DNA of 64,000 bases from Branchiostoma floridae (taxonomy: Eukaryota > Chordata > Leptocardii > Amphioxiformes > Branchiostomatidae): contig NC_049984.1 in assembly GCF_000003815.2 (NCBI RefSeq), forward strand, positions 2,624,932 through 2,688,931. The letters are read 5' to 3'. The notes under the pieces are model-generated. The model was not told the DNA's origin. It did not search any database and worked only from the letters and a program-made list of their open reading frames with translations. This document shows positions 6,966 to 52,600 of the stretch, piece by piece (position 1 is the first letter of the stretch; every line of letters begins with the position of its first letter). Both the position numbers and the translations under genes were made by a program.

Positions 6966-7518
6966 TCACATCCTGATCCGGACCAGTTCCCCCACTGCCA
7001 GCCTCCTTAAGACTATGTGATAACTTACCTAATTTTAGATTAAGTTAAGATGGGAGATAGCTGGGCCTTGTCTTTAAGATGAGAGAACATACCTCATTTT
7101 TGTTAAGATGGGAGACTTAGGCCGGGCCTTGTCTTAATCTAAAATTAGGTAAGTTATCACATAATCTTCAGGTTCCTCACATCCTGATCCTGACCAGTTC
7201 CTCCACTTTAAGATAATCAGATCTTCAGTAAGCTCTCCCATCCTTTAAGACATGACACATCTTCAAGTGACATCCTCACATCCGGATTCTGACCAGTTCC
7301 TCCACTGCCAGCCTCCTTAAGGCAAGTTCTCCCATCTTAAAGACAAGGCCCGGCCTATATCTCCCATCTTATCTAAAACGAGGTAAGTTATCACATCACT
7401 AAAGACATCTTCAGGTTCCTCACATCCTGATCCTGACCAGTTCCTCCACTTTAAGATGATCAGATCTTCAGTGAGCTCCCCCATCCTTTAAGACGTGACA
7501 CATCTTCAAGTGACATCC
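6966..7518 (-). repeat. Repeated copies of the last RECQL4 exon's stop-codon edge (copy A)
   Basis: Segments matching the last coding exon's 3' edge (plus strand CCTCACATCCTGATCC, GACCAGTTCCTCCACT, and in some units GCCAGCCTCC) start at about 6966, 7177, 7269 and 7418 before the real exon at 7519. They are separated by ATCAGATCTTCAGTAAGCTC and CCATCCTTTAAGAC blocks. An inverted repeat with ~34-bp arms (7011-7166, GTGATAACTTACCTAATTTT) is embedded. Confidence 0.8.
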
Positions 7519-10500
7519 TCACATCCTGATCCTGACCAGTTCCTCCACTGCCAGCCTCCGCAGCTGGTTGAAGTCCACATCCAGGTGGCTGCGCCAGTAC
7601 CGTCGATCACGCCCCCACACCTGGATAAACAAACATGCAGGTAAACAGACAGGTAACAAACAGCTGTAAGAGACAGGTAGAAACAGTCTCCTGACTACCA
7701 TGATTTGAACGGTACGGACATGTAGAAAGATCTAGTGACTGCATAAACTCCATCACCAAATTGAAATTGTCAGGCCGCAGTGGTTGTGGCCGACCTAGGA
7801 AATCCTGGATGGAATATGTTAGGAGAGACATCAAGGTGAACCCGCTGGACAGAGTTGCTTGGAAGCGCGGTGTGCAGTGTAGCCAAATGCTGCCTACCTC
7901 TGTGTCAGGGACCCCAGCAGCAGTATGATCAAATACTGCATACTACTTTACTACTACTACTACCGACCTGTGCTGGGTAGCAGGGGCTGGTGATCCCGTG
8001 GAAGATGCGAGCGATGGCTCGACCGGTGAAGTTCCTATCGTGGTGCAGACACACGAAGCTGCAAATGTCCGCACGCACCTGGCCCTCGTTCTTCAGCGGC
8101 ACCTGAACAGAGATGTCAAGGAGTTTACATACATACATACAAACATAGGCATACTCCTATACAGTTACATACGAGGGGCGTGGAAGAAGTAATGGCCCTG
8201 ACCCACTTCCAGTCGTCTGATCTAAATGAAATTTTGTATGTGTAATGATTAATATCTCTATGGGGTATGTTGCGAAAGACAGCTCTGAACTAATTGTGGT
8301 TTCTGATTTACTGGTGTTTGAACTTAGTCAGGTGCGAAATGGACCAGGTGTGAAATGGAACCAGTTGAGTGTCGCGCAGTGATCCGGTTTTTGTATTTGA
8401 AAGGACGCACACCAAAGAAGACTTTTGATGAAATAAATGAAACTTATGGTGATGATGCCCCATCATATGACCTTGTAAAACGCTGGCATCCTGAATTCAA
8501 AGGTGACCGGAAGTCTGTGGAAACAGCTCCCAGACCTGGTCGTCCCGCTTCTGCCATTGATGAGGCATCTGTTGGAGGACCAACCTGGGGTGTCCTACAA
8601 AAACGGTGTCCAGAGCTGCATCAAACGATGGGAGAAATGCATAACTCTGGGTGATTCCTATGAAGATAATGACTAATATCTGTGCCAAGTTTCATCAATC
8701 TCCTGCTATGGGAAATGGGTCAGGGCCATTACTTCTTGCACGCCCCTCGTACATACATACATAGGCATACTCCTATACAGTTACATATATACATACATAG
8801 GCATACTCATATACAGTTACATATATACATACATAGGCATACTCCTATACAGTTACATACATACATACATAGGCATACTCCTATACACCTTTCTCACGCG
8901 GCGGCCATGATAGATCTAAAACGAGTTCAATGTGGCAAACAAAAGGCTGTCCATCATAATCAGCAGTTCGACCAATGGTAGCCTGCCAATTAGGAAATCG
9001 ACCAATAAGTGAATGGCTGCAAATTCGTTAAAAATTTGCATTATTATGTTTTTATTTTGCATCTCTTAAGGGACCATGGGGTCAGTCTACACTACTCTAA
9101 ATTGCTACATCTTTCGGTGCATAACACTTCTTGTAATATTTATTATTCTATCTTATATCATGAAAATTTGCGTGGTTTGGGGGAAAACTAAATGGGACCT
9201 GATTTTAGAAATAAGTTTTGTCTGCTTGCCTCATTGACCTTGTCTTCGATCTATCATGGCCGCCGCGTGAGAAAGGTGTATAGAGTTGTAACATTAACAA
9301 GGAGTTTAGCTTCCTTAAAAACAACATTGAGTAACAGTCGTCTCCAAGCAGATGTGTCAGTTCAAGGACGTTATCTCACTTAACTCAAGTGAAAATGAGT
9401 ACCTAGCTACGGCTAGGGCCATCCTTCGGATAGGACGTTAAATGGAGGTCAAGTGTTTGGGGAGAGCCACACCCCACGCACGCACAAAAGGAACCCCCAC
9501 ACGGGCGATGGTGCAGTGTGTCATGGTGCAATTTCTTTTTTCTAGAATTGGTGATTCTCTACAAATCACCCGGACTCCAGGAAAAATAGTGACATATCTG
9601 TCACTATTGGAGATCTGTACCAAACCAAACCACACCTGTTCCACCTCTTGCTCCTCCCCACAGCTGTCTGAAGAAACGTTAAGTGTCAGCTCCTTCTCAA
9701 AGTACCCCCTTCAGTAGGTTCAGAACCACTCCGGGAAGTGGAAAGGACCTACTCTTTTTTATAAGTGTGGTGGGTTCTTACTCTCCAAGCAGAGGGTAGC
9801 TCCGGCTGTTTTTTTAACGCGTTTTTAGTCGTTTTTAATGGGATTTCTATTTTGTCATTTTTCTTGAAGGACCCTTACTGTTTCTGACAAGTGTGGTAGG
9901 TTCTTACTCTCCAAGCAGAGGGTAACGGTAGGCTCCGGCTGTTTTTGAACACGTCTTAAGTCGTTTTTATCAGGATTTCTATTTAGTCATTTTTCTTGAA
10001 GTACGTTAGGCTTTGACAATACATGTACAATACAAAATAGAATGCCTGATAAAAACGACTAAAAAAACGTTATAAAAAAAACAGCCAGAGCCTAACCTCT
10101 GCTTGGAGAGTAGTGCACATAGGTTCTTAGAATTAGATGTGCTTGAGATAGGCCTAAGAAGTATAATTGTTCCTTACCTGTTCCTCCTCCTCCTCCCCAC
10201 AGCTGTCTGAAGAAACGTTAAGTGTCGGCTCCTTCTCGAAGTACTCCCTCAGGGTGACCTTGAGCTGCTCGCTCCGACCTTGGTCCACTTCTTCCGCACA
10301 GTGCCAGAACTCGTCATGCGACACGCTGGGGCAGGAGGGGGGCAAGAGACACTTTCATTCACAATTTCTTGTTTGTGTTCCTTAATTGTAGTTCATTTAT
10401 TATGATTTAAGAAGATATTAGATTATATGGATGACATCCTCTGAGAACCCCAAAACTGATGCGAGCATGCGAATAGAAAGTTGCATTCAGTATGAAATCT

Positions 10501-13500
10501 AAGTAGTCAGGAAGGTTAAAAAAATGATTGTAAAAATGAGTATGATATACAGAACAATAAATTCTTCATTTTACATTTTGCTCTTTCACATCTTTTTCCA
10601 TAACTTCCATGAAATTGAATTTGGCATTTCTCTATGATATTTCTAAGTTTGGCTAAGAAAAATTGTAACAACTGTACAGCAATTTTAAAGTCCCAATCCG
10701 GCATTCTAATCATTGACAGTGGCACACTCGGTGTGACTTTGAATTGTTCTATGGAAGCCCGTGTGATAACAGAAGAACCAAGTGTAATACCCCAAGTTAT
10801 CGCCCGGACAGGAACAGAACACCCATGGCTCGTTCTCATTTAAATGTCGAAATGCTGTCGCCTGACTTTACGCCTTGATATGGAGCAAATTATAGACAAC
10901 AGCATTGGTTCCTTCATCTTTCCACAACCCCAGTAATGTTTTACAAAAGATGCACCACATCTTTCGTATATGTTGACGGGTTAGAAGATTATTATGGCCA
11001 CGGGTGGGATTTCACACCCTAAAAAATGGCTGTCGCCTGAGAAGAAACGAAGAATTCAAATAGTAGCCAAAAATGTAACTGGTCAGTTCCCAGAATAATT
11101 GTTCGGTAGGTGAAACCAGCTACCCAGACCCTCTGCCCGATCACGTCAGATCGCTCCTGTCACTGATCTTGGAGGCTGTGTGAGGTGGTTTATGCCTGTC
11201 GCCAGATTCTGTAACAAACGTTACCACCACTAGTACGATGGTTGCCTAGGTTATATTTACCACGTATAAGACTAGAAATGGCCGTTTTTGTGACGCTGTA
11301 CAGTTTTTCTGGCTTTCTAAAGAAACAATAAAGGATTGTTGACTGTCATTTGTATCCCACCTTGCTTAACAAAATGTTGTACAGAAATGACTGTAACAAA
11401 CGTTACCATTGTTCGATGCTGTCTAAGCTTTCTATTTGACCTGGTGTAAAAAAGCTGCCCACTTTTCAAATGTCCCTAGGGACATCCACTTATACCTAAA
11501 TGATGTAGTTAATAAGGTAAGTCCTTTCGAGGAAAACAGGGTAAAGTCTACTGTTGTAACAAACGTTACCGGTAACGTTTGTTACCTGCCCTGTAATGCA
11601 TTACCAATGGGACCGAAAATAATAAGTTGCCATTTTTTGGCTATGGTTAAAAGAGGAATTTTCCTAAACAACCACGTAGTTTTCAGTGAAAATAAAGCCG
11701 ATTTATTTTTCGACCAAAAAAATGCAATTTTCGACATTTCAATGAGAACGAGACCCATATCAAATGTTATTGCAGCCAAGGTATGACATAAATACATGTA
11801 ATACATGTGGCTGGGGAAACATAAGGTCAAATGTGAAGATGCCCTACTCTGTTAATGCCTGGAAGACTGCCTTGAGCTGCCTGAGCTCCGTACACTCCGT
11901 TTTGCCGATATCTTGACTACGACAATAAAATTTCCATCTAGAAAAAACTGTCGGCAACCCGATATTGGCGAGGAAAAAAACTGCGTCTAATCGTGCCTTT
12001 CTTTAATGTCTAAATGTTCTGTACAGCAAGAGAGAGACTACCTAGTCCCACAAACAAGCTGGAGGTCAGGTGACTATGCAGGTAGGTAGGCTAGGAAAAC
12101 ACAACGTCCATTCTCCTATGCAGAGACATCCAATGGTGAAACCGGGCGACGCCCACAGGAACAAATGCTGACACTTGAGATAGCAGAGTACAGACAAGCA
12201 GCGGTTTTGCCATTGGATGTCTCTGTGAAGGAGAATGGACGACGCCTTACTCTGTCAGCGCCTGGAAGACTGTCCTGTTAAGTTGGTATATAGGTAGGCT
12301 AGGCAAACATAATGTGTAGATGCCTTAGTAACCCTTACTCTGTCAGCGCCTGGAAGACTGCCTTGAGCTGCCTGAGCTCCGTCCGCTCCTGAGACTCCAC
12401 CCGACCGTACAGGAAATCCGACACCTCCTCCAGCTGATCGTCCGTCAGGTCGCCCGGCGCCCGCAGCAGGAACGACACGTCCGTAAACTCCGCCAGCAGG
12501 CCCGTCCGCTGGTAACCTGAAGCTCAGAAGAGACCCCTGTCAGTTACGGACAAAACTGCAGTAGTCAAAGCAGAGATCAACAACACCAGTATGAAAACAA
12601 CACTTATCAATGTTGTTAAGGGCACAACTTTTAAGGGCACAACTTTTAATAAGAGTAGGTTGACCATATCTCACTTTACAGAAACTGAAAAATGCTTATG
12701 TGGAGAGGACTTAATGAAAACAATGTATGACAAGAAATACTGGAGGTTGAACTTGTTGAGCATATCTGTAAACAGTGGAGTCTCCTACCAATTACAGACA
12801 GAACTGACATGGTTTCAAAAGCAGAGCCTCATAATTTGTTTCAGGTATTTCCCCACCTCCTGTGTTTGTCCTCTTCCACTTGAGTGCCCGGATGTCCCTC
12901 CGTACAGGCTCCAGGTCCCACCCCATCCTGTCTGCTAGCTCCACCACATTGAACTCTAACCTGTGGGTACAGGGGTTAAAGGTTAAAGGTGACAGGCACC
13001 AGGTCCCACCCCATCCTGTCTGCCAGCTCCACAACGTTGAACTCTTACCTGTGGGTACAGGGGTTAAAGGTTAAAGGTGACAGGCTCCAGGTCCCACCCC
13101 ATCCTGTCTGCCAGCTACACAACGTTGAACTTTAACCTGTGGGTACAGGGGTTAAAGGTTAAAGGTGACAGGCTCCAGGTCCCATCCCATCCTGTCTGCC
13201 AGCTCCACAACATTGAACTCTAACCTGTGGGTACAGGGGTTAGAGTTTAAAGGTGACAGGCTCCAGGTCCCACCCCATCCTGTCTGCCAGTTCCACAACG
13301 TTGAACTCTAACCTGTGGGTACAGGGTTAAAGGTTAAAGGTGACAGGCTCCAGGTCCCACCCCATCCTGTCTGCCAGCTCCACAACATTGAACTCTAACC
13401 TGTGAGTACAGGGGTTAAAGGTTAAAGGTGACAGGCTCCAGGTCCCATCCCATCCTGTCTGCCAGCTCCACCACATTGAACTCTAACCTGTGGGTACAAG

Positions 13501-16325
13501 GTTAAAGGTGACAGGCTCCAGGTCCCACCCCATCCTGTCTGCCAGCTCCACAACATTGAACTCTAACCTGCAGGGTCAGAGGTTAAAGGTTACAGGGGAC
13601 ATGCTCTAGGTCCCAACCCAAGCTGTCTACCCACAGCTCCAACACATTGAACTCTAACCTGCAGGGACAGAGGTTAAAGACTACATGTCCCACCCCATCC
13701 TGTCTGCCGGCTCCACGACTTGACCTCTAACCTGTAGCATCAGAGGTTAAAGGTTAAAGGCAATTGGCTCCTGGTCCTTGAATCTTGAAACAGTGTGCAA
13801 GGAAAATAATTCGCTAGACATGGTCTCTTGGTGCTGGATAACACATGCATGGATACCCGTAAAGCTTAACAGTGAAACAAGTTCAACAGATGGCCCCAGC
13901 CTGACCTGTTGCTGGTCGAGTGGTCGACTCCCTTCTTCCTCCCCATGGCGACGGCCGCGGCGATGATGGGGTTGGTCCGCGCCAGTTGCCGTAGCAACCC
14001 CGGTCCCCCGTAGAACTGGATGGTGCAGAAGGCTCTGATTGGTTGGAGCACCTCGATCCACTTCCTCTGGTGCAGTTCCAGGTAGCACAGCAAGGTGGCG
14101 ATGCCTGCAGATGCAAGGGGAACACATCCAGGAAAACAAACACAAGGTCATTTCGGCTAAATTTTTATTCATTTTTCCATTTAGTGCATGACCCAAGATG
14201 GCCGCCATATCTGGAAATTACTCTATTACTCAACAACTAGATTAAGATTTAGGAACCAGTTAGACATTTAGCATCTTTCGCCAGTGACTGAGGTAAAAAA
14301 CGTGAACAAAGGCACTGATTGAAAACATCAGACGCCTCTTTTTTAATTAAAAAACAACAAATTGGGGCTTGGGCAGTAGTTATTGGGTCAGCCTACTGGC
14401 CTACTGAAATTCAGATTTATGAGAAGTGCTGTTAAATTTATTCTTGGACAGAGGAAGAAGAAATGAGGCAACAGCACATTTCTCTTCAACAAATTGGCTA
14501 GAAAAAAATTTATTTCAATGTAGGTCCTAAAGGTGCTCATGATCCACTCAGCAATACTCCAATGAGTCACAGTCAATGAAAGACCCATAGCTGACCTTCC
14601 TCCGTCATGTCCAGTGCCTGCACAGCTGCCTCCACAGGCACTGCCACCACATGCCCAGGGCAGCTACAAGGCAGGGGGGCCTCCGAACTGTCAGCAGTTT
14701 CATGGTTGCAAACTGCTGAGGCTGTGTTCTGGTCATTGTCTAGACCAGTGGAGACTTGTGCTGGAGTGTTAGCATCTTCAGACAGCATGGCGTAGTCTAT
14801 ACCATCTTCTTCAAATTCTGGTTCCTGTACAAAGGGAAACGTTTCAACAACCAAGTTCAGAACTCGACAGCAAGTAAAGAGCAAGGTTTCTTTTGGAAGC
14901 ACGGTCTTGTGGCTATACTTGTTCTGGATTCGAATCCCTACCTGATCGCAGTGTTGCACATAGCTAGGAATAAAATTTTCTAGTAAATCTATTATTTTTC
15001 AAAATACAAAAAAAATGCAGTAACCCTGACCTGCACCTGTGCAGCTCTCTCTCGTTCCCGTTGCTGCCGTAACTTCTCGCGACACCGGCAGCGCGGGAAA
15101 ACTTTCCTCAGCAGTTTCTTCACTGTCGTCCTGTCAACTGAGTTGCCGTAGGTGTGGCGCCGCAACTCACACAGGTCCGAACCCTGCAATAAACAATAAA
15201 CAAATGAACAACAACATTAAGCAAACAGCTTAAGTCATTACAGTACTTGACATTTCTAGCCTGAATTAGGCTTATGTCACATTCCCTACCCAGGGGCCCA
15301 GCCGGGCTGTTTGAAGAAATGAAAAATTTAAGTTTATGCCTTATGCCGTTGAATTATTTTGGGTTCATAATGTGTTTCGGTTGTCTTTGTATTGTACTTT
15401 TCATTCTCCAAAACTGCACAGCCAAGCCCCTTTGTGGAAATGTGATGCTAGCCTTTGCAGTTTCAATGAAAATTGCTAGGTGTCTCTCTTGCATCAGCGT
15501 TAAAGAAGAGGTGACAGTGTGAAGGTCCCCCATCTCTCCCTGCCCTCCCAATCTCCTGTACATAGTTCTACAAAATTTCAAAGAAATAAATTGTGCCTCT
15601 GCAGTTTCAATGAAAATTGCTAGGAGTCTCCCTTACATCAGCATTGAGGAAGAGGTGACAGTGTGAAGGCTTCCCATCCCTGCCTGCCCTCCCAATCTCC
15701 TGTACATAGTTCTACAAAATTTCAAAGAAATAAATTGTGCCTCTGCAGTTTCAATGAAAATTGCTAGGAGTCTCCCTTACATCAGCATTGAGGAAGAGGT
15801 GACAGTGTGAAGGCTTCCCATCCCTGCCTGCCCTCCCAATCTCCTGTACATAGTTCTACAAAATTTCAAAGAAATAAATTGTGCCTCTGCAGTTTCAATG
15901 AAAATTGCTAGGTGTCTCTCTTACATCAGCGTTGAGGAAGAGATGACAGTGCAAGGGCTTCCCATCTCTCCCCGCCTTCCCGATGTAAAACTACTGAAAG
16001 AAGTTTTAAAAATGCCTGCAGTTCTAGTGCAAATTGCTAGGAGTCTCTCTTACATCAGCGTTGAGGAAGAGATGACAGTGTGAGGGCTTCCCATCCCTCC
16101 CCGCCCTCCCGATCTCCTGAACGTAGTTCTCAAAGCTCTTTGGCATGTTGTAGTGGATGATGGCCCGCACGTCGGACTTGTCCAGCCCCATGCCGAACGC
16201 GACCGTTGCCACGACGATACGCAGCTCTCCCGACATGAAGCGTTTCTGGATCTGCCGACGCTGAGCGGCGGACTTCCCGGCGTGGTAACAGTCAGCCAGC
16301 CACTTCACCTGCGGTGGGCCTTTCT
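7519..16325 (-). CDS. RECQL4: RECQL4-type RecQ DNA helicase, C-terminal nine exons (copy A, intact)
   Basis: RecQ4 helicase acts in replication initiation and genome stability in the nucleus. Exons in transcript order: a 16325-16054, b 15183-15031, c 14824-14596, d 14104-13906, e 12960-12857, f 12516-12339, g 10325-10178, h 8102-7968, i 7620-7519 (stop 7521-7519). All phases match across GT/AG introns, giving ~506 uninterrupted residues. Exon a holds helicase motif V ([12 protein letters not shown]) and motif VI ([10 protein letters not shown]). Downstream blocks align in order with vertebrate RECQL4 rather than other RecQ proteins: [89 protein letters not shown]. There is no typical zinc-binding RQC region, as in RECQL4. 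Exon b could instead end at 15037. Exons for motifs I-IV and the Sld2-like N-terminus are not found upstream before the EF1A gene, so this copy looks 5'-truncated or misassembled. Confidence 0.9.
7621..7967 (-). other. RECQL4 copy A intron h-i
   Basis: Short intron between exon h (donor GTCGGT) and exon i (acceptor TTTATCCAG). No mobile element recognised. Confidence 0.7.
8125..8885. repeat. Minisatellite split by a mariner insertion
   Basis: Units of about 40 bp (CATACATACATAGGCATACTC, CTATACAGTTACATA) occur at about 8125-8170 and about 8750-8885. The mariner element at 8172-8749 sits inside the array. Copy B lacks the array at the equivalent intron position. Confidence 0.85.
8172..8749 (+). 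mobile_element. Internally deleted mariner element
   Basis: Terminal inverted repeats CGAGGGGCGTGNAAGAAGTA, extending through ATGGCCCTGACCCA, are flanked by TA at 8170-8171 and 8750-8751, the target duplication of Tc1/mariner elements. The plus strand encodes the N-terminal paired-like DNA-binding region of a mariner transposase from about 8355 ([43 protein letters not shown]). It is then joined out of frame to the C-terminal tail ([19 protein letters not shown], stop at 8674-8676). The catalytic DD(D/E) core is deleted, so the 578-bp copy is non-autonomous. Confidence 0.9.
8881..9283. mobile_element. Foldback MITE, ~403 bp
   Basis: Terminal inverted repeats CTATACACCTTTCTCACGCG, continuing GCGGCCATGATAGAT, with the exact reverse complement at the right end. 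No transposase. Absent from the same intron in copy B. Confidence 0.85.
9365..9620 (+). mobile_element. tRNA-derived SINE body (5'-truncated)
   Basis: Shares the body GTGAAAATGAGTACCTAGCT, GGACGTTAAATGGAGGT, GGGGAGAGCCACACCCCA with copies at 17830, 33565 and 57060. The tRNA-like head is missing. Copy B has only the tail end of this sequence near 44640. Confidence 0.65.
9640..9720 (-). repeat. Partial duplicate of RECQL4 exon g donor edge (copy A)
   Basis: The plus strand reads CACAGCTGTCTGAAGAAACG, TTAAGTGTCAGCTCCTTCTC, AAAGTACC, matching the 3' part of exon g (10178-10260). It begins like the exon/donor side (ACCTGTTCC) but stops within the exon. It lies in intron g-h. Confidence 0.8.
9779..10112. 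mobile_element. Foldback MITE (CTCTCCAAGCAGAGG family), left arm duplicated
   Basis: The left arm TACTCTCCAAGCAGAGGGTA..GCTCCGGCTGTTTTT..TAGTCGTTTTTA occurs twice (9779 and about 9904) before a single right arm ending CTCTGCTTGGAGAGTA. The orthologous element in copy B (44891-45078) has one left arm, so the duplication is specific to A. Confidence 0.85.
10326..10823. other. RECQL4 copy A intron f-g, first part
   Basis: Non-coding. From about 10400 it is not matched in copy B. No element recognised until the inverted-repeat block at 10824. Confidence 0.4.
10824..11757. mobile_element. Copy-A-specific inverted-repeat element, ~930 bp
   Basis: Ends are imperfect inverted repeats (CTCGTTCTCATTTAAATGTC on the left; GACATTTCAATGAGAACGAG on the right). 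Inside, the motif GTAACAAACGTTACC occurs at 11211 and 11393, and as a perfect 30-bp palindrome at 11556-11585. No transposase motif is visible in the 116-codon open frame at 11436-11786. The segment is absent from intron f-g of copy B. Confidence 0.55.
11830..12345 (-). repeat. Duplicated donor edge of RECQL4 exon f (copy A)
   Basis: Sequence like the exon f end plus donor (plus strand TTACTCTGTCAGCGCCTGGA, AGACTGCCTTGAGCTGCC) recurs at about 11845 (diverged) and 12246 before the genuine junction at 12336-12345. Confidence 0.8.
12106..12240. mobile_element. Short foldback MITE (GCAGRGACATCCAAYGG family)
   Basis: Inverted ends GTCCATTCTCCTATGCAGAG..ACATCCAATGG and CCATTGGATGTCTCTGTGAA..GGAGAATGGAC. 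The same family as the larger element at 42952-43229. It sits between two exon f edge repeats. Confidence 0.75.
12857..12960 (-). CDS. RECQL4: RECQL4 copy A exon e (intact)
   Basis: A 104-bp exon, acceptor CCCACAG at 12961 side, donor GTGGGG. It encodes [20 protein letters not shown] and then [15 protein letters not shown], matching the RECQL4 block around MGWEL..VRR. Its first ~55 bp are the same sequence as the repeat units that fill the preceding intron (12961-13745). The codons for L-E-P match the array version, unlike copy B. Confidence 0.85.
12961..13745 (-). repeat. Exon e acceptor array (copy A), about nine extra units of ~89 bp
   Basis: Each unit read on the minus strand carries a pyrimidine stretch, CCCACAG acceptor and the first ~55 bp of exon e. 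On the plus strand the signatures are CCACCCCATCCTGTCTGCC, AGCTCCACAAC(G/A)TTGAACTC, TAACCTGTGGGTACAGG and GGTTAAAGGTTAAAGGTGAC. Acceptor copies recur near 13038, 13127, 13217, 13305, 13391, 13479, 13559, 13650 and 13721, besides the real one at 12961. Later units drift (CTGCAGGGTCAG). Confidence 0.9.
14105..14595 (-). other. RECQL4 copy A intron c-d
   Basis: Non-coding. About 14220-14570 matches copy B 53040-53360 only partially. No element recognised. Confidence 0.5.
15441..16090 (-). repeat. Exon a donor array (copy A), four extra units of ~137 bp
   Basis: The plus strand unit AGTTTCAATGAAAATTGCTA, GGAGTCTCYCTTACATCAGC, TTGAGGAAGAGRTGACAGTG, CCATCCCTGCCTGCCCTCCC, AATCTCCTGTACATAGTTCT repeats at about 15460, 15605, 15742 and 15890 before the true exon edge at 16030-16140. 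Each unit holds a GTAAGRGAGAC donor on the minus strand and the last ~85 bp of exon a. The units before the true edge are frayed and lack the helicase-coding remainder. Confidence 0.9.
16054..16325 (-). CDS. RECQL4: RECQL4 copy A exon a: helicase motifs V and VI
   Basis: A 272-bp exon starting [16 protein letters not shown]. It includes [12 protein letters not shown] (motif V) and [13 protein letters not shown] (motif VI, arginine finger region) and ends HCHLFLNAD before donor GTAAGA. This is the second half of RecA-like domain 2. The ATP-binding motifs I-III would be in missing upstream exons. Confidence 0.92.
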
Positions 16326-27325: not shown

Positions 27326-27640
27326 CAGGGCTTGAAATACGTTTTTCTGCACACCTGCACTGGCGCAGGTAACATTGAAAATTACCTGCACCAAACAAAT
27401 TTTACCACCACTCTCTCTTACCAATTTAGGAACTATGGATCATACTAAAATTGTTCAGGCACCATTGCTAACTTTTTTATAATCTACAGGTGGCAATGCA
27501 GCTAAGAACAATCCACATACACCTATATCATAGGACATTTATGTATAAAACCAAGTACATGGACCAGTGCAGGTTAGCTGTAGGTAGACACCAGAAATAC
27601 CTGCACAGCTCCAATTTAACCTGTATACAATGCAAGTGAC
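27326..27640 (+). mobile_element. hAT-like MITE, CAGGGCTCGAAATA family
   Basis: CAGGGCTTGAAATACG start, AAAATTACCTGCACCA, GGACCAGTGCAGGTTAGCTG, CCTGCACAGCTCCAATTTAAC. The right terminal repeat is lost. Confidence 0.75.
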
Positions 27641-28748: not shown

Positions 28749-29092
28749 CAGGGCTTGAAATACCACCTGCATATGCAGGTTAGTGCAGGTAAAATTAGAG
28801 CTGTGCAGGTATTTTAGTGTCTACCTGCACCTAACCTGCACTGGTCCATGTGCTGGGTTTTATACATAAATTGCCTATGATGTAGGTGTATGTGGATTGT
28901 TATTAGCTGCATTGACTGTTACCACCTATTATGTTTTGAAAGAAAAAAAAAATAGCAATGGCTCCTGAACAATTTTGATATGATCCATACTTCCTAAATT
29001 CAGAGTGGTGCAGGTAAATTTGTCTGGTGCAGGTAATTTTCAATGTTACCTGCACCAGTGCAGGTATGCAAAAAAAAGTATTTCGAGCCCTC
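28749..29092 (-). mobile_element. hAT-like MITE, CAGGGCTCGAAATA family, full length
   Basis: CAGGGCTTGAAATACCACCT at the left and AAAGTATTTCGAGCCCT at the right, in the opposite orientation to the 27326 copy. About 340 bp, no coding capacity. Confidence 0.85.
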
Positions 29093-43415: not shown

Positions 43416-43690
43416 TTCCTCACATCGTTATCCTGATCAGTTCCTCCGTAAGGTAAGTTCTCCCATCTTAGGCCCAGCCTATAGGCCCAGCCTATAGGCC
43501 CAGCCTATCTCACATCTTAACTAAAATGAGGTAAGTTATTTCATCACTAAAGACATCTTTATGTTCCTCACATCCTGATCCTGACCAGTTCCTTTATTTT
43601 ATTTTAAGATAATCAGATCTTCAGTAAGCTCTCCCATCCTTTAAGACGTGACACATCTTCAAGTGACATCCTCACATCCGGATCCTGACC
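43416..43690 (-). repeat. Repeated stop-codon edge of RECQL4 exon i (copy B)
   Basis: Exon-edge copies at about 43418 (TCCTGATCAGTTCCTCC) and 43568 (CCTCACATCCTGATCCTGAC) precede the real edge at 43672. Three copies of TAGGCCCAGCC lie between (43470-43507). Confidence 0.75.
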
Positions 43691-46600
43691 AGTTCCTCCA
43701 CTGCCAGCCTCCGCAGCTGGTTGAAGTCCACATCCAGGTGGCTGCGCCAGTACCGCCGGTCACGGCCCCACACCTGGTAAACAAACTCCAGTTAGAAGCT
43801 CTGAGGAAGGTGTCTAAGAGCATTCGAAACATAAGCAAAGTAAGTACCTACTGGTTGTGTAATAAGAATTCTCCTATATCCTATATTCTACCAACATACT
43901 AGTACATTTAACCCAGAGTCCTGACAGGTCCGAAACCAGCAAATGATAAAAGGTTAACATTTCACAATGTAATGTTGTTAAATGATGTTATAGCTTGATG
44001 TTAAACGTGTAATTTATTGTATTATGATCAGTAGATAATAAGTGTTAGTATGACAACGCTTTGCAAATAGCAGTCATAATTTATTGTATTCTATGGAAGA
44101 GAACTCCAGGAAGAGTAGTGGTTGTATGTCAACACTAATAGAGATTCCTTGACAAACAAACAAACACTACCGACCTGTGCTGGGTAGCAGGGGCTGGTGA
44201 TCCCGCGTTAACACTAATGGAGATTCCTTAATAAACAAACAAAGAAACAAACAAACAAACACTACTGACTTGTGCTGGGTAGCAGGGGCTGGAGATCCCG
44301 TGGAAGATGCGAGCGATGGCTCGTCCAGTGAAGTTCCTATCGTGGTGCAGACACACGAAGCTACGGATGTCCGCTCGCACCTGGCCCTCGTTCTTCAGCG
44401 GCACCTGGACAGAGACGTCAAGGGGTTTAACTTATGTGTCTGACAGGAAAGCTGTACGGATAGAACCTAAATGTCTATGGTCTGGGGGGAACTCTGTACC
44501 TTTGTATATACAGTTTAGTTAATATGTTAATCTTGACCTTGAGAAACCAAGAAGAAAACATATTTTGGCCTGCACTGAAGAAGTGGCATTGTCCTCACCT
44601 GTTCCTCCCCACAGCTGTCCGAAGAAACGTTGTGTCATGGTGCAAATTCTTCCTTCTAGACTTGGTGATACTCACCCGGACTCCAGGAAGAATAGTGACA
44701 TATCAGTCACTAATGGAGATCTGTACCAAACCGAACCAAACCAAACCAAACCTGACCCTCTTGCTCCTCCCCACAGCTGTCTGAAGAAACGTTAAGTGTC
44801 AGCTCCTTCTCAAAGTACCCCTTCAGTAGGTTCAGAACCACTCCGGGAAGTGGAAAGGACCTACTCTTTTTTATAAGTGTGGTGGGTTCTTACTCTCCAA
44901 GCAGAGGGTAGCTCCGGCTGTTTTTTTAACGCATTTTTAGTCATTTTTATTGGGCTTTCTATTTTGTTATTTTTCTTGAAGAACGTTAGGTTTTGACAAT
45001 ACAAGATACAATACAAAATAGAAATAACGATAAAAACGACTAAAAAACAGCCAGAGCCTAACCTCTTCTTGGAGAGTAGTGCACATGGGTTCTTAGATGT
45101 GCTTGAGTTTGGCCTAAGAAGTGGACTTGTTCCTTACCTGTTCCTCCTCCTCCTCCTCACAGCTGTCTGAAGAAACATTAAGTGTCGGCTCCTTCTCGAA
45201 GTACTCCCTGAGGGTGACCTTGAGCTGCTCGCTCCTTGCCCGGTCCACTTCCTCCGCACAGTGCCAGAACTCCTCATGTGACACGCTGAGGGGGGAGGGG
45301 GGCAAGAAACACTTTCACATACAAACAAGCATGATGCTGAATCTTCAGTCTACCTTGTCCCTCCAACAAGATGGAAGACGCTCAAGGGACTAGGTAGGTA
45401 AATAGGTAGGCTGAGAAAACATAATGTGAAAATGTGACAATGCCTTCAAGTTAGTAACTCTTACTCTGTCAGCGCCTGGATTAAGACTGCCAAATATCAT
45501 GAAGTTCCGTCAACCCTTTCCCGAGTTATTCCCCTCTAAAGGGATGATGCAACTACACATGCCTACAAATTTTGGGAAATCTTGTCAAACAGATGCTCTC
45601 TATCCTATTAGGCTAGCCCCTAAGGCATCGCCAAAATGTGACAATGTCTTTAGTAACGCTTACTCTGTCAGCGCCTGGAAGACTTTGCCTCCTTCACCGG
45701 CGTCTCTAGGGCCTTGGTGGAAGTTGTTTGGGGAGCTTCGATTCACGATTTTATCCGGGAATACGCGGCAAGGGAAAATATGGGCCGGTACACTTCCCCC
45801 AGTATATATTCCTCTCTCCCCCCCCAAAAAAAACAACTTCCGCCAAGGCCCTAGAGACGCCAGTGAAGGATGCTATGGAAGACTGCCTTGAGCTGCCTGG
45901 AGACATATCTAAAAGCAATAGTAATATTTTTCCCGTCTCAACAAGCAAATTTCCGTCCTGGGGCAGGGGGACTGTCCTTGGGACTGCCCTGCTAAGTAGG
46001 TACAGTAGAAGCCAGTTAATTGCACAACAGATTAACGCACACTTCTGTTAACTGCACGGAATCCCCAAATCCCAAACCGGTGCGGTCCAGCTGGGTAACT
46101 TTGCATTATTGGACCAGCCTGATAATTGCACGAAATACGCTGGCAAATAGTGTGTACAATAAAACGGCTTCTACTGTATATAGGTAGGCTACGGAAACAT
46201 AATGACTGTGTAGATGCCTCAGGGTTAGACAAGTCCACTAGCCCTCGTCCAGGGCAAGTGAAAATGCTGATCGGGCAAGCGCGTGTCATACTTCACTTGC
46301 CCGAATGGGCAAGTAAGATTTTTCCATTGAGTGAGAGTTTGATATACTTTTCACTTTTTACAGTCATGACAGTCTTGACATTAAGCAATGGTCGACATAG
46401 AAGAATAGAGGCAATGATAAGAATTCCATTGCTGGAAGTGAAAATGCATATAATAGTGACATTCAAATTTTGGGCAAGTGAAAAATTGATTCGGGCTAGT
46501 AAATTTTTTATGTGCCTGCCCGATAGGACAAATGAATTTTAGAAAACTTGTCCAACCTTGTGCCTTAGTAAGTCTTACTCTGTCAGCGCCTGGAAGACTG

Positions 46601-49600
46601 CCTTGAGCTGCCCTGTTAAGTTGGTATATAGGTAGGCTAGGCAAACATAATGTGTAGATGCCTTAGTAACTCTTACTCTGTCAGCGCCTGGAAGACTGCC
46701 TTGAGACTGCTCTGCTAAGTAGGTATATAGGTAGGCTAGGGAATGTGTAGATGCCTTAGTAACCCTTACTCTGTCAGCGCCTGGAAGACTGCCTTGAGCT
46801 GCCTGAGCTCCGTCCGCTCCTGAGACTCGACCCGTCCGTACAGGAAATCCGACACCTCATCCAGCTGATCGTCCGTCAGGTCGCCCGGCGCCCGCAGGAG
46901 GAACGACACATCCGTAAACTCCGCCAGCAGGCCCGTCCGCTGGTAACCTGCAGTGGCGCAGAAGAGACCCCTACTGATTTTGGAGAAAACTACAGTTACC
47001 AAAGCTGAGATCAACAACGCCAGAGAAAACAAGCATGGTGTTTATAAAAACACAGGCGACGAAAGGTTACGATTGAATAGTTGTTTGTTTGTTTGTTTTA
47101 TTTAGACCTCTGCTGTCATAGACACCCTTTGTCTCTGATATGGACTGTCTGTGCCTTGACAGTTTATGAATGACCTTAATTGTACACGGTGCAGTGCATG
47201 GCAGGAACTATTACACAGAGTGTGAAATAAAGGTATCGGGTAAGACTAAATATCCTAATTACTATAACAATAAATGCTAGCATAAATTTCGATATCAAAT
47301 TTCAATCGAGCGGGGATTATCATGAGTGTCAGTATATTTTCTAATAACATTGCTAACAAAGCTGTCTCCTATATTTGCCTATTTTTGCGTTGTGCCATTG
47401 AAGATAATTTATATTTATATACATTCAAATCTGTCTGTAGCATCTAGTCTTTTAAAATCTGATCTACTTGATTCGAGAACTGCGAATAACTTACGACGTA
47501 ACGTATTATATCTAGAATAATCCACGACGAAGTGGAAGTTCATTTCATATGGATAAAATGTTGGTTTATTAGGGGATTAATCGCCTCATGGCCGATTGAC
47601 AATGTCACAATGGTGACCCTAAGTAGCCCATTGAGAGTCCCAAAGCACAGACTGCCAGACCAGCTGTAGGTCATCTGGAGCGAATTACAGCCCATTCCAG
47701 TACCGTGCCCTCGGGGACATCTGTGTCTGTTACATGTAAATCATAACACTCGCACCACCTGTACAACTGGAACCCGAGCTCAGGGGACAGTGTTAAACAG
47801 GTGCCCACTGACAAGCTTAGAACTGGGAGTTCATGGGGACATCGATCTGTGGAAACTTTTCACTCGCACCGCCACCTGTACAACTGGATCATATGCTTAG
47901 GGGACAGTGTTTAACAAAACATTTACTAGTACCCACTGTTACGTTATTGTTGACGCAAATTTTACATCACTAAATCTAAATCTTACATTAGAATCTCAAA
48001 TAGGCTATGCAGTAAAGAAGTGCAATATCAGCATGGTCAAGTGAGCTTAGAGTGAGTAAATCACTTCCAATCCACGCAGACAGAAGGTGGCACTGGTTTA
48101 AGCTGGTACTGACACGGCTGGGTACATCTAAGAAAAGGGTAAAACAACTTCAAGTTTCAAGCGATACAAAACAGAGCGGCCAGGATCACCCTTGGATGCG
48201 ACAGGTCCAACGGGTCCAGAGACTCTTTACAGTTTACTGCAGATGCTAACGTTAGTGCCGTTAAACTTGAAAGACATGATCCAGCAGAAAACTTAGTGAA
48301 TTTTCATGAGTCATGAAAACAAACCATCAGTGTCAATATGTAAACTACTCACAATGCAAGATCACTGTTATCAGACCAAATCTTCAGAAAAAGTTAGAAA
48401 ATATCCGCTCTCTGAAACCCAGCACAAATTTAGATGCTCAAAACTGAACAATTTCTGCACTGAACGTCTAACACATGGAATAGTTTGCTGTAAGCAAATT
48501 AGATTTTGTCCCATTGTTCGTGGACCTAACGTAGACTTCCTACTTTTTGTGACTCTTTTGAAAAGTTGCTGTATATGATATTTTCCTGTGGCTGTGTGTT
48601 ATCTAGATTTGTTCCATGGATATTGATGAATAAAGGATCACAGGAAGAATACAGATGCTATAGACATTGTAAAAGCTAATCGTGTCTCCAAATAAATTCA
48701 TAGAATGTTACCAACATATAGATAGCTGTGTGTTAGTACTGTTATCAATTACCACACAAAGTGCAATGATTGATGACCAGATGGACAGACAGCTGGGCGG
48801 GGATTTGTGTGGAAAGTAGGTTGGACGTTATTTGTTGAGAGGAAAAGTGGGAGGAGAGAAGGGTGGACCTTATTGGGTGTTTGCATGTTAGATCAACCCA
48901 AAGGCGGAGCACAGAGATAGGGAAGAGCATTCGAGAACTTTTGAGTGAACACAAAAGACCCTCCAGTGATGGGAGCAGACGTACTGGATGGGAGCAGACG
49001 TAATCAGGCGTCTATAGTCTATCAGCGTTCAGGCAATCTTTGGCCGAGTTTTCTTGGGGACAGACGGACACAGAACAGCACAAAAGGTGAGTGATCATCA
49101 TTTTCCAGCTTCATATATTACGTATCCTTGTAAAAACCATTATGTGGTTGTTTCTAATTGTTCTAGTTGCCTCGACGAACCTACCCAGGGTTAGCCTGCT
49201 TGCTAGACTGTTCTGTTTCTTCAAAATTCAAGAGCTAACTGACAGACCATCTCCTTGGCTGACATGAGAAGGAATTTTACCACAGACACCCCTAAGTTAG
49301 ACCAATTAAAAATAGAAACTGTGCAATGCATACTCCCGCTTACTAGACAGGATAGCATGCTGTTGGGGGAAAAGTCTTTGTTCCCTTTGTCTCCCATGGC
49401 CAGCTGCGTAGCTTAACGCGTGCTAACTCATTAATCACTAGGTCAGGGGGGGGGGGGGGTGGCACACCTGCGATGCAGATGTTTAGCCGCATGCTAGGGA
49501 TAGGGCCGTACCAAATAATTCTATGGATGCTATCATAGTGAGCATTGATTGCAAACGAATTTGTTTGCAAAAAAAAATTGTCACATTTTCTGGAGTTACA

Positions 49601-52600
49601 CTTTAGGAAATTTTGTGTTATATGTCATTGGATTTGATTATGTAGGGGCGTAAGTAAAGACATCAGAGCCCACATTCCCCTCTTTATATGTTGAGTGTTA
49701 ACATGTTTATCTTGAATGTATAGCAAGAATTTAATTTCGAATGAGGGTCACAGTCTTAGAACCATGTGTATGAGTTACAGTAGTCTGGTTAGTGAAACGT
49801 ATAAATTCAAAATGATTTCAGTTTTGTTATTCTATGTACATTGACATATTTCCTAGAATTTCTTTCGCCGCACATGCGTAGTGACATCTGTGAAGGGCTT
49901 ATATAAGATAGTTTGTTCAATGCCCAACTTGAGTACCGCACGTGTGCTCACGAAGATGAAGTCGAAGATATTTGTTACTTACCTTTGAATTAAACGCCAA
50001 GGGGTATCTTTAGCCAAAATATGAGAAAAAGCTATGATGTTTCAAATGAAAAGTTTGAAAGAAAATCCCTTCGGAAGGTACGTATCCTCAGTACACATTA
50101 TTGTTTCTTTTGCAACTGCATGGGGCTGACCAGTACCCGTGATATTTTTCATAAAGAAGAAAGAGAGAGATCCGTCAATGACTCATCGTGATTTATGAAG
50201 AATGTAACATCATTCTGTCCAGAGCAGTACAGCCCTATAACAAAACAGAAACATGGTGTGCTGGGTGATATAGTTTTTTACTGGATATATCACTACATGC
50301 AATATCAATCCCAAACATCTTCTTACAACTAATGGTTTCAAATGTATGCAATTACTGTAAAGCCAAACGGTTGGGAGTAATTCCACATTTTTCTTTTTTT
50401 TCTCTCACAAGGAATTACAACATATGAAGGATGGGAAGATGACCCCACCAGACCCCACAGCTTGTCATGAGAACAAGTTACACAGACGGATGCTGTTCAA
50501 ACAGTTTTCCTGAACAGCGAGGTTTGTTACACCATTGTTCTTATTGCTGATATAGTTTGAGTATCCAAAGTCATAGAGGTAACAGTGGGCAGAATGGTGG
50601 GTTAAAAATGGACCTTTAAAGGCACAAGGGGGCTTAAATGCACAAACATCGGGAGCATTGAAAACTAGTACAAACATATGAGTGGATGTTGGGTGTTGGT
50701 TGATCTATTATACTGGGCACTTAGTTTTTTCGAACCTTTATTTATTAATTATGTGAAAAAAAAATTTGACAGCTAAGCAATCTAAAGAAACCCATAGGGA
50801 TTCATTCATGTTGACATATTGATCATGGAATATGTTTGTGTCCGTCAACTATACCTAACCTGTTCTATATTATTTCTTTCAGCTCTACAAGGCGACAACG
50901 ACAACGGTCACAAGAAATTAATAGTTGAACTTGGACGGCAATCAGATTGATAGTAACCGTAGCTTTACAATGCATCACAATCTATCACCTCAACGAAACG
51001 GAAGTCAATGCACATGTAGTCAGGCTTGACTCTATAGTTCCAGGAATTTTGTCAGCATGCAAACAACTTATTATACGGTCAACAGAATTACAAAAGAAAT
51101 GTTTTGCTTGAATGTATTACCAAGTGTCATTGTTATAGAAGTAAATCCAAAGTTATAAGAATGACGCATCTTTGCCATGTTCTGCCAGGTTTTTACATTC
51201 TCTGTGTTTGTGTCTTGAGATATGGTAAAAGTATATATGATGTGTATGTTGATGAAATAAAAGGTATAGGCAATTGTGTGGATCGTTTTTTTTAAATGAG
51301 TAGTCTTTAAAATGTGGACAGTCATGGCCATTTCTGCTTTCTACAAACATCTTGCAGATAAAAATTGTTTCAAATCAGATTTAGTAAATTCAAAATACGA
51401 CTGTGTTCACAGGTGAAACAAAAAAACGTATGTACTTCAAACATTAAAGCTTTAATATAGTGTTCCTATTTCTCTCAAAGAACACCAAAAGAGCGATTGA
51501 GAGTTAAAAATATAAATCTCAATTTGCCAGAATTTGCAAAAACAGAAAAACGTACTTAATGCATTGATTATGACAGTGTTTTTTTGTGTGCTGAAAGAAA
51601 CAAATTGCACGAAACAGTAATGTGACGGTAAAATACCAAGCACAAAGGCCATTTCTGTTCCGACAAAAGACCAAACAGGCAAAGGCTACCTCAAAACCAA
51701 TTCCCTAGGGAATGCATTCGTGCAATTTTTGGAATATTTTCAAAGCGATCGTAATACTGTAGAATGCCTCCGCCCCTGAGGCGTCGCCAAAAAAACGCTT
51801 ATAAATGTTTTAGAAGACTACTTAAGAGCACTACTAGAGAGTAGGTCGTCTGTACCTCACTTTAGAGAAACTGACTGAAACTGAAATGTGTTTATGTGGA
51901 GAAGACTTGATGTAAATGCAGTATTCGAGGCACTCTGAGGTTTACTGAGACCAGGCATTGTCAATTGCTGGCTGGCAAACTTTGAAAATGAAACCCTGCA
52001 CAAAAATACTAGTACTTGTTGAGCATTTCCAAGAGAGACTCCTACCAATTACAGCTAGAACTGCAGTTTCAAAAGCACAGCCTTAGAATTTGTTTCAGGT
52101 ATTTCCCCACCTCCTGTGTTTGTCCTCTTCCACTTGAGCGCCCGGATGTCTCTCCGTACATTCTCTTAGCTCCCACCCCATCCTGTCTGCCAGCTCCACA
52201 ACATTGAACTCTAACCTGTGGGTACAGGGGTTAAATGTTAAAGGTAACAGGCTCCAGGTCCCACCCCATCCTGTCTGCCAGCTCCACAACGTTGAACTCT
52301 AACCTGTGGGTACAAGGGTTAAATGTTAAAGGTCATACGCTCCAGGTCCCACCCCATCCTGTCTGCCAGCTCCACAACGTTGAACTCTAACCTGTGGGTA
52401 CAGGGGTTAAAGGTTAAAGGTGACAGGCTCCAGGTCCCACCCCATCCTGTCTGCCAGCTCCGCCACGTTGAACTCTAACCTGCAGGGTCAGAGATTAAAG
52501 GTTAAAAGTGACAGGCTCCAGGTCCAGCCCATCCTGACTGCCAGCTCCAAGACTTGACCTCTAACCTGTAGCATCAGAGTTTAAAGGTTAAAGGTAATTG

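Follow-up and report, generated by a model that had tools for sequence, protein, structure and literature searches.

Why do the ends of so many exons of a single lancelet gene recur in the non-coding DNA next to them? The question was raised by a preliminary description of a 64,000-nt stretch of the Branchiostoma floridae genome (C6:2624932-2688931, contig NC_049984.1; hereafter the window), which named the gene RECQL4 and reported that its exon edges had been copied into the adjoining non-coding DNA. The identity of the gene, which encodes a DNA-repair helicase, was borne out. Copy A of RECQL4, delimited by splice signals and reading frame, comprises nine exons (a to i) on the minus strand, running from 16325 down to 7519 in a single open frame to the stop codon. 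The joined nine-exon protein matched the human RECQ4 structure 5lst_A with E 4.3e-95, far above the second-best family, WRN (8e-24), and also far above RECQ5 and BLM; comparison with human RECQ4 places the encoded part in the C-terminal half of the protein. Motif searches over 144 kb, of which 24.3 kb is N and in which intron-split motifs are missed, gave a few unconvincing matches to first-lobe helicase motifs (Walker A, DEAH), and upstream of copy A (window 16326-43600, 1,114 bases N) motif search yielded no convincing first-lobe exon of RECQL4. The copies of this block may perhaps be 3' partial. A plasmid search with exon a returned bacterial RecQ genes only.

To locate repeated exon ends, the copy A exons were aligned back against the window, and the units were read individually. 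Exon a (16054-16325), which by protein match encodes the end of the helicase core and closes on the donor GAT/gtaagag, is followed by a donor-side array at 15451-16053 with units of ~144 bp, whose four decoy stubs end at 15925, 15781, 15637 and 15493. Four extra units had been claimed, and four were found, but the period given for them (~137 bp) was replaced by a stub spacing of 129 bp and then 144 bp. The acceptor of exon e (12857-12960; ccacag/GTTAGAG) adjoins the largest series of decoys, at 12961-13777, where nine decoy acceptors (13048, 13136, 13224, 13312, 13399, 13487, 13567, 13658 and 13731) recur in 88-bp units with AG kept in 9/9, close to the roughly nine extras of ~89 bp first reported. 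Both of these large arrays were independently detected by TRF (88 bp x 8.9 for e, 144 bp x 3.7 for a), and minisatellite-scale tandem repeats are thus present in the gene.

The remaining repeated ends of copy A are shorter, and were identified by exon alignment and unit reading. Exon f (12339-12516) has two decoy donor stubs within 11848-12276 (12276-12251 and 11898-11848), carrying 26 and 51 exon bases and lying below the length needed for the strict self-alignment test described below. Exon i (7519-7620), the last exon, ends in the stop codon TGA, and four copies of this end, 31-41 bases each, occupy 6966-7450 (7450-7420, 7316-7276, 7207-7177 and 7006-6966); both counts agree with the earlier ones. 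At exon g (10178-10325), the last 75 bases are copied once, at 9636-9714, followed by gtgtgg; the single extra copy claimed here therefore stands for the exon end, but the intron side differs and was not copied. Exon alignment and local self-alignment showed both edges of exons b (15031-15183), c (14596-14824) and d (13906-14104) to be array-free, as is exon h (7968-8102).

Exon edges are accordingly copied into adjoining non-coding DNA at four of the nine exons of copy A (five with g) and at five (six with g) of copy B, and the introns do carry decoy splice sites attached to stubs of coding sequence, as seen in both the alignments and the unit reading. The edges affected include donors, one acceptor and one stop codon. 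The statement that every unit straddles a junction does not fit exon g, which repeats its exon side and GT without the intron, or exon i, whose array lies on a coding/UTR edge with no splice junction. Units that cross the exon/intron boundary together with the splice signal occur at exons a and e in copy A and at a, e, f and h in copy B, not at g. Stub depth is not fixed: a simple measure put it at ~21-86 exon bases in arrays a, e, f and i, but broke down on g and h (14 and 0).

The RECQL4 block is present as three copies in a row (6966-16325, 43420-55406 and C6:2727945), ~86-99% alike in a mosaic pattern. In copy B, also on the minus strand and ~36-39 kb from copy A, exon alignment and unit reading recovered exon a (55135-55406) with two decoy stubs (55072-54991 and 54561-54519, the second interrupted by an inserted element), exon e (52111-52215) with four decoys (52303, 52391, 52479 and 52565), exon f (46770-46947) with three decoy donors (46677, 46579 and 45664), exon g (45138-45285) with two partial copies of its end (44826-44757 and 44631-44603), exon h (44270-44404) with one decoy donor stub (44205-44175, also found by self-alignment) and exon i (43672-43773) with two stop-codon stubs (43593-43568 and 43447-43420). 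This agrees with the first account of copy B, which had listed the same exons plus h. A further exon f candidate at 45864 did not align at the junction and was dropped from the conservation set. Exon e of copy B measures 105 bp against 104 in copy A, with one additional base, close to where the repeated stub ends on its exon side, that shifts the frame and is either genuine or an assembly error. Copy C lies in gap-rich sequence and contains exons a, b, c and g only; its exon a, at C6:2727945, has one old decoy, and its exon g has one long and one short copy. The element that interrupts the old exon a unit in copies B and C has inverted ends (CAGGGCTCGAAATACC) and spans 54562-54901 of the window; stretches resembling it were observed near 28749-29091 and 27326-27623.

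Unit number differs among the copies, which may be haplotypes or paralogs: exon a has four, two and one decoys in A, B and C, and exon e has nine in A and four in B. At four-fold sites, A and B differ at 18/179 positions (7/9 exons), A and C at 10/83 and B and C at 15/83 (exons a, b and g), and first and second codon positions differ by ~1%, a pattern expected under constraint. The close similarity of the copies, their mosaic arrangement and the 24.3 kb of N raise the question of whether assembly has expanded or collapsed the arrays and set unmerged haplotypes in tandem as A, B and C; one amphioxus globin repeat of this type is described as aberrantly assembled in the draft genome, in the text of PMC3087553 compared here. 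Yet the units inside an array differ from each other, comparable repeats are known from unrelated amphioxus genes studied by other groups (PMC3087553 and PMC3902484, as far as compared), and an artefact would bear on unit number and on the tandem arrangement of the copies more than on whether the arrays exist. We therefore regard an origin in assembly as very improbable.

A comparison of exon a among the copies suggests that real and decoy ends can change roles. Copy B from its first exon a decoy onward and copy C from its coding end onward are 98.3% identical over 635 bp. Over the 105 bases compared, the coding end and the first decoy of copy B differ at three exon and seven intron positions, and the coding end of copy C carries the base of the B decoy at two of the three exonic and all seven intron-side differences. 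Both exonic changes are silent at the protein level in the chosen frame. We initially read this pattern as a contraction in copy C that had carried decoy bases into the coding end. This reading was not kept: among the matches between C and the B decoy, only the base at position -10 is not shared with the coding end of copy A, so that the gain of a unit in B is as plausible as a loss in C. The few informative sites thus suggest that one stretch serves as coding end in C and as decoy in B, an exchange of roles whose direction we leave unassigned.

If the decoys took part in splicing, as the preliminary description had proposed among other readings, perhaps by buffering, delaying or regulating the use of the true site, their splice dinucleotides might be expected to stand out. 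In aligned, hand-chosen units, AG is kept in 13/13 decoys of exon e (copies A and B), GT in 6/7 of exon a with one GC (A, B and C) and GT in 5/5 of exon f (A and B). However, among neighbouring column pairs, 25% in e, 52% in a and 41% in f are conserved at least equally, and column conservation in these three arrays gave no indication of selection on the decoy AG or GT. The dinucleotides are kept because the units are alike, and their retention is therefore no sign of selection. In one unit of array e, at 13048, the acceptor context has become CAG/GTAAGAGT, with a donor score of 11.1 that exceeds seven of the eight true donors of copy A (5.9-11.4); together with the decoy acceptor one unit upstream, this donor could form a predicted pseudo-exon of 88 bases. 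Against a splicing function stand the unremarkable conservation of the decoy dinucleotides, the existence of one array built on a stop codon and not on a splice site, and a unit number that is not maintained across copies. In addition, the globin study, in the portion compared, reads the Adh3 data together with its own RT-PCR as a sign that splicing is left undisturbed (PMC3087553). We give a splicing role almost no credence.

Whether the arrays are tied to junctions was assessed by strict local self-alignment, with at least 12 bp on either side of the edge and E<=1e-4. By this measure, 3/18 edges are spanned in copy A (a, e and i) and 5/18 in copy B (a, e, f, h and i). Of 6,000 non-coding points placed at random in the window, 8.6% are spanned; the figure is 4.8% between the copies, and 9.0% and 30.4% for intron points in copies B and A, respectively. 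Point by point, no clear excess of edges over background was found within the window, where A and B are related copies. As sequence, the repeats greatly exceed what chance would give, but their tie to junctions is weaker than it first appears.

The analysis was extended to control exons obtained by family searches of the same genome (513,431,437 bases, 431 contigs), namely myosin head (29 of 142 matches, six loci), CCT chaperonin (33 of 60, five loci) and SNF transporter (19 of 103, four loci). The 15 control loci (81 exons, 162 edges, 90 kb) were selected for a high number of exons per length, ahead of any search of them for repeats; one locus fetched for a duplicated exon match (L052) was left out. 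The splice-edge scorer recovered 17/17 splice edges of RECQL4 copy A from exons trimmed by 12 bases, and 15/144 edges in the first 13 control loci had weak splice scores. Local direct repeats were sought, and the arrays were compared with a null that assigned one unit per array to a random viable position. Of the 15 local arrays, 5 lie across an exon edge against 2.0 expected (P 0.04 at the main setting), an excess over random placement that counts against a neutral reading; among nine settings, P varied between 0.004 and 0.31. Before the last two loci (L053 and L054) were added, the figures were 5/13 against 1.66 (P 0.016), and their inclusion raised P to 0.04. This array-level test was adopted after the point-level result was known, and is preferred because an array represents one event growing into the intron; its P depends on the flank demanded, being 0.004 with flanks of at least 5 bp (7/15 against 2.35 expected), while 20-bp flanks gave 0.31 at an E limit of 1e-2, 0.22 at 1e-4 and 0.10 at 1e-8. 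The same test on RECQL4 itself, whose copies are related and which was selected for its arrays, gave 3/6 against ~1.0 in copy A (P 0.05) and 5/7 against ~0.9 in copy B (P 0.0007).

At the level of points, the control loci displayed no excess: 5/162 edges (3.1%) lie in arrays against 976/21177 intronic points (4.6%), and 2/156 against 411/19986 when locus L044 is omitted. The five straddling arrays sit in 3 of the 15 loci, all of them myosin (5/58 edges, three of six myosin loci), and three of the five are in L044; no straddling array was found at the 66 chaperonin or the 38 SNF edges of the control set. The L044 myosin locus (C10:21154400-21159000) has local repeats over 3/6 tested exon edges, and such repeats also take in 47% of its intronic points.

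A mechanism tied to junctions had been put forward in the preliminary description, together with a check of arrays at edges against a shuffled control. The results bear on one form of this idea, namely that transcription, R-loops or an AG/GT proto-splice sequence starts duplications preferentially at exon edges. The array-level excess speaks for it, particularly with short flanks, as does the position of individual control arrays, with the sole array of L041 and one of the two in L040 sitting on a donor. But the excess fades with 20-bp flanks, is concentrated in few loci and is absent per point; in copy A, moreover, the three spanned edges compare with 30.4% of intron points, and a stop-codon edge is affected besides the splice edges. 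Pairs anchored in a conserved exon decay more slowly and stay visible for longer, an effect that inflates the array-level figure and may account for part of the excess over random placement. Overall, a modest junction preference is possible but unproven, and junction-tied birth is an unlikely explanation for the RECQL4 arrays.

Repeated exon ends extend beyond RECQL4. Among 20 RecQ loci fetched from the genome, 11 were scanned for local repeats, of which 8 contained some, and three were read closely. A locus on C7 with a Walker A exon that we take to be RECQ5-like (L018) has ~12 decoy acceptors in 58-66-bp steps, with AG in 13/14 sites, the true one included, and a presumably BLM- or RECQ1-like locus on C17 (L023) has two decoy acceptors with long stubs preceding the likely true acceptor; decoys were absent at the exon read in the third (L028). 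A single donor-side copy, 92% identical and 168 bp distant, occurs in the SLC6-type gene L052 on C7, which was picked for its duplicated match. With 5/162 edges affected in the 15 control loci, such arrays may be common in this genome.

Taken together, the evidence favors, with a probability of roughly 0.7, the reading that the RECQL4 arrays are mirages, as such repeats are called in amphioxus, that arose through ordinary minisatellite birth and turnover and whose presence at exon edges is tolerated, since the site closest to the exon is left unharmed. As the anatomy suggests, the first duplication would by chance have broken once within the exon and once within the intron or 3' UTR. The exon would thereby retain its own intact splice site, which is indeed seen in the unit adjoining the coding body, while the extra units in non-coding DNA would be free to multiply, shrink, drift and accept insertions, presumably through slippage and unequal exchange; differences in unit number from copy to copy are observed. 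Splicing would be expected to ignore the decoys, since the true donor precedes the decoy donors and stubs with a decoy acceptor generally have no donor of their own, so that exon definition would favor the true exon. A unit confined to an exon would in most cases disrupt the frame and be eliminated, and the surviving arrays would be intronic or edge-straddling. Real and decoy ends may occasionally trade places, as the few sites at exon a of B and C indicate.

With ~half of its exons bearing a repeated end, and with three related copies that differ in unit number, RECQL4 offers a compact natural experiment on how a true site is chosen among up to nine decoys and on possible intron gain. A broader proposal, which we hold only tentatively and consider doubtful, is that a process in this lineage starts tandem duplications at exon edges with a two- to three-fold preference, seeding a few per cent of edges with decoys, and that unequal exchange then swaps real and decoy ends. 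If so, concerted turnover would shape the evolution of exon edges, which would provide raw material for the gain or shift of introns.

The preliminary description knew of no named system of this kind; such a system has been published, as the parts of PMC3087553 and PMC3902484 compared here make clear. Mirages were named in amphioxus Adh3, for which somatic instability is also reported in the text compared, and were described again in the globins BflGb6 and BflGb9; published units measure 10-72 and 150-160 bp, BflGb6 has six versus three units in two haplotypes, at 81-100% unit identity, and intron gain was proposed from these repeats (PMC3087553). PGBD5 and troponin C were added later (PMC3902484), so that, in the literature compared, mirages have been published for a handful of genes. 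Among the matches listed in a search of the open-licence literature, judged by titles and the beginnings of abstracts, none concerned mirages in RECQL4 or a genome-wide mirage count. Two other systems invite comparison, again on the basis of partial texts. Primate-specific human paralogs likewise have tandem repeats at exon-intron boundaries, in numbers that vary between paralogs and with new introns as a possible outcome (PMC2812944; intron-class units measure 9-30 and 62-126 bp), but these are segmental duplications found via exons that differ between paralogs, and long intronic decoy arrays are not described in the text compared. Intron gain by tandem genomic duplication (PMC4974935) also copies splice-competent sequence; there, a gained intron is claimed, whereas RECQL4 has existing introns with partial exon copies and no evident new intron. 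Judged by anatomy as read in the DNA, the RECQL4 arrays belong with the amphioxus mirages: in both, minisatellite-like tandem duplications lie over an exon/intron boundary, on the donor or acceptor side, and copy the splice signals. They differ from the mirages described in the texts compared in that four to six of nine exons have a repeated end, a stop-codon edge is included, and up to nine decoys accompany one acceptor. Our results thus extend what is known of mirages: many are packed into one gene, one array repeats a stop codon, real and decoy ends have probably changed places, and a small survey gives an estimate of how frequent they are.
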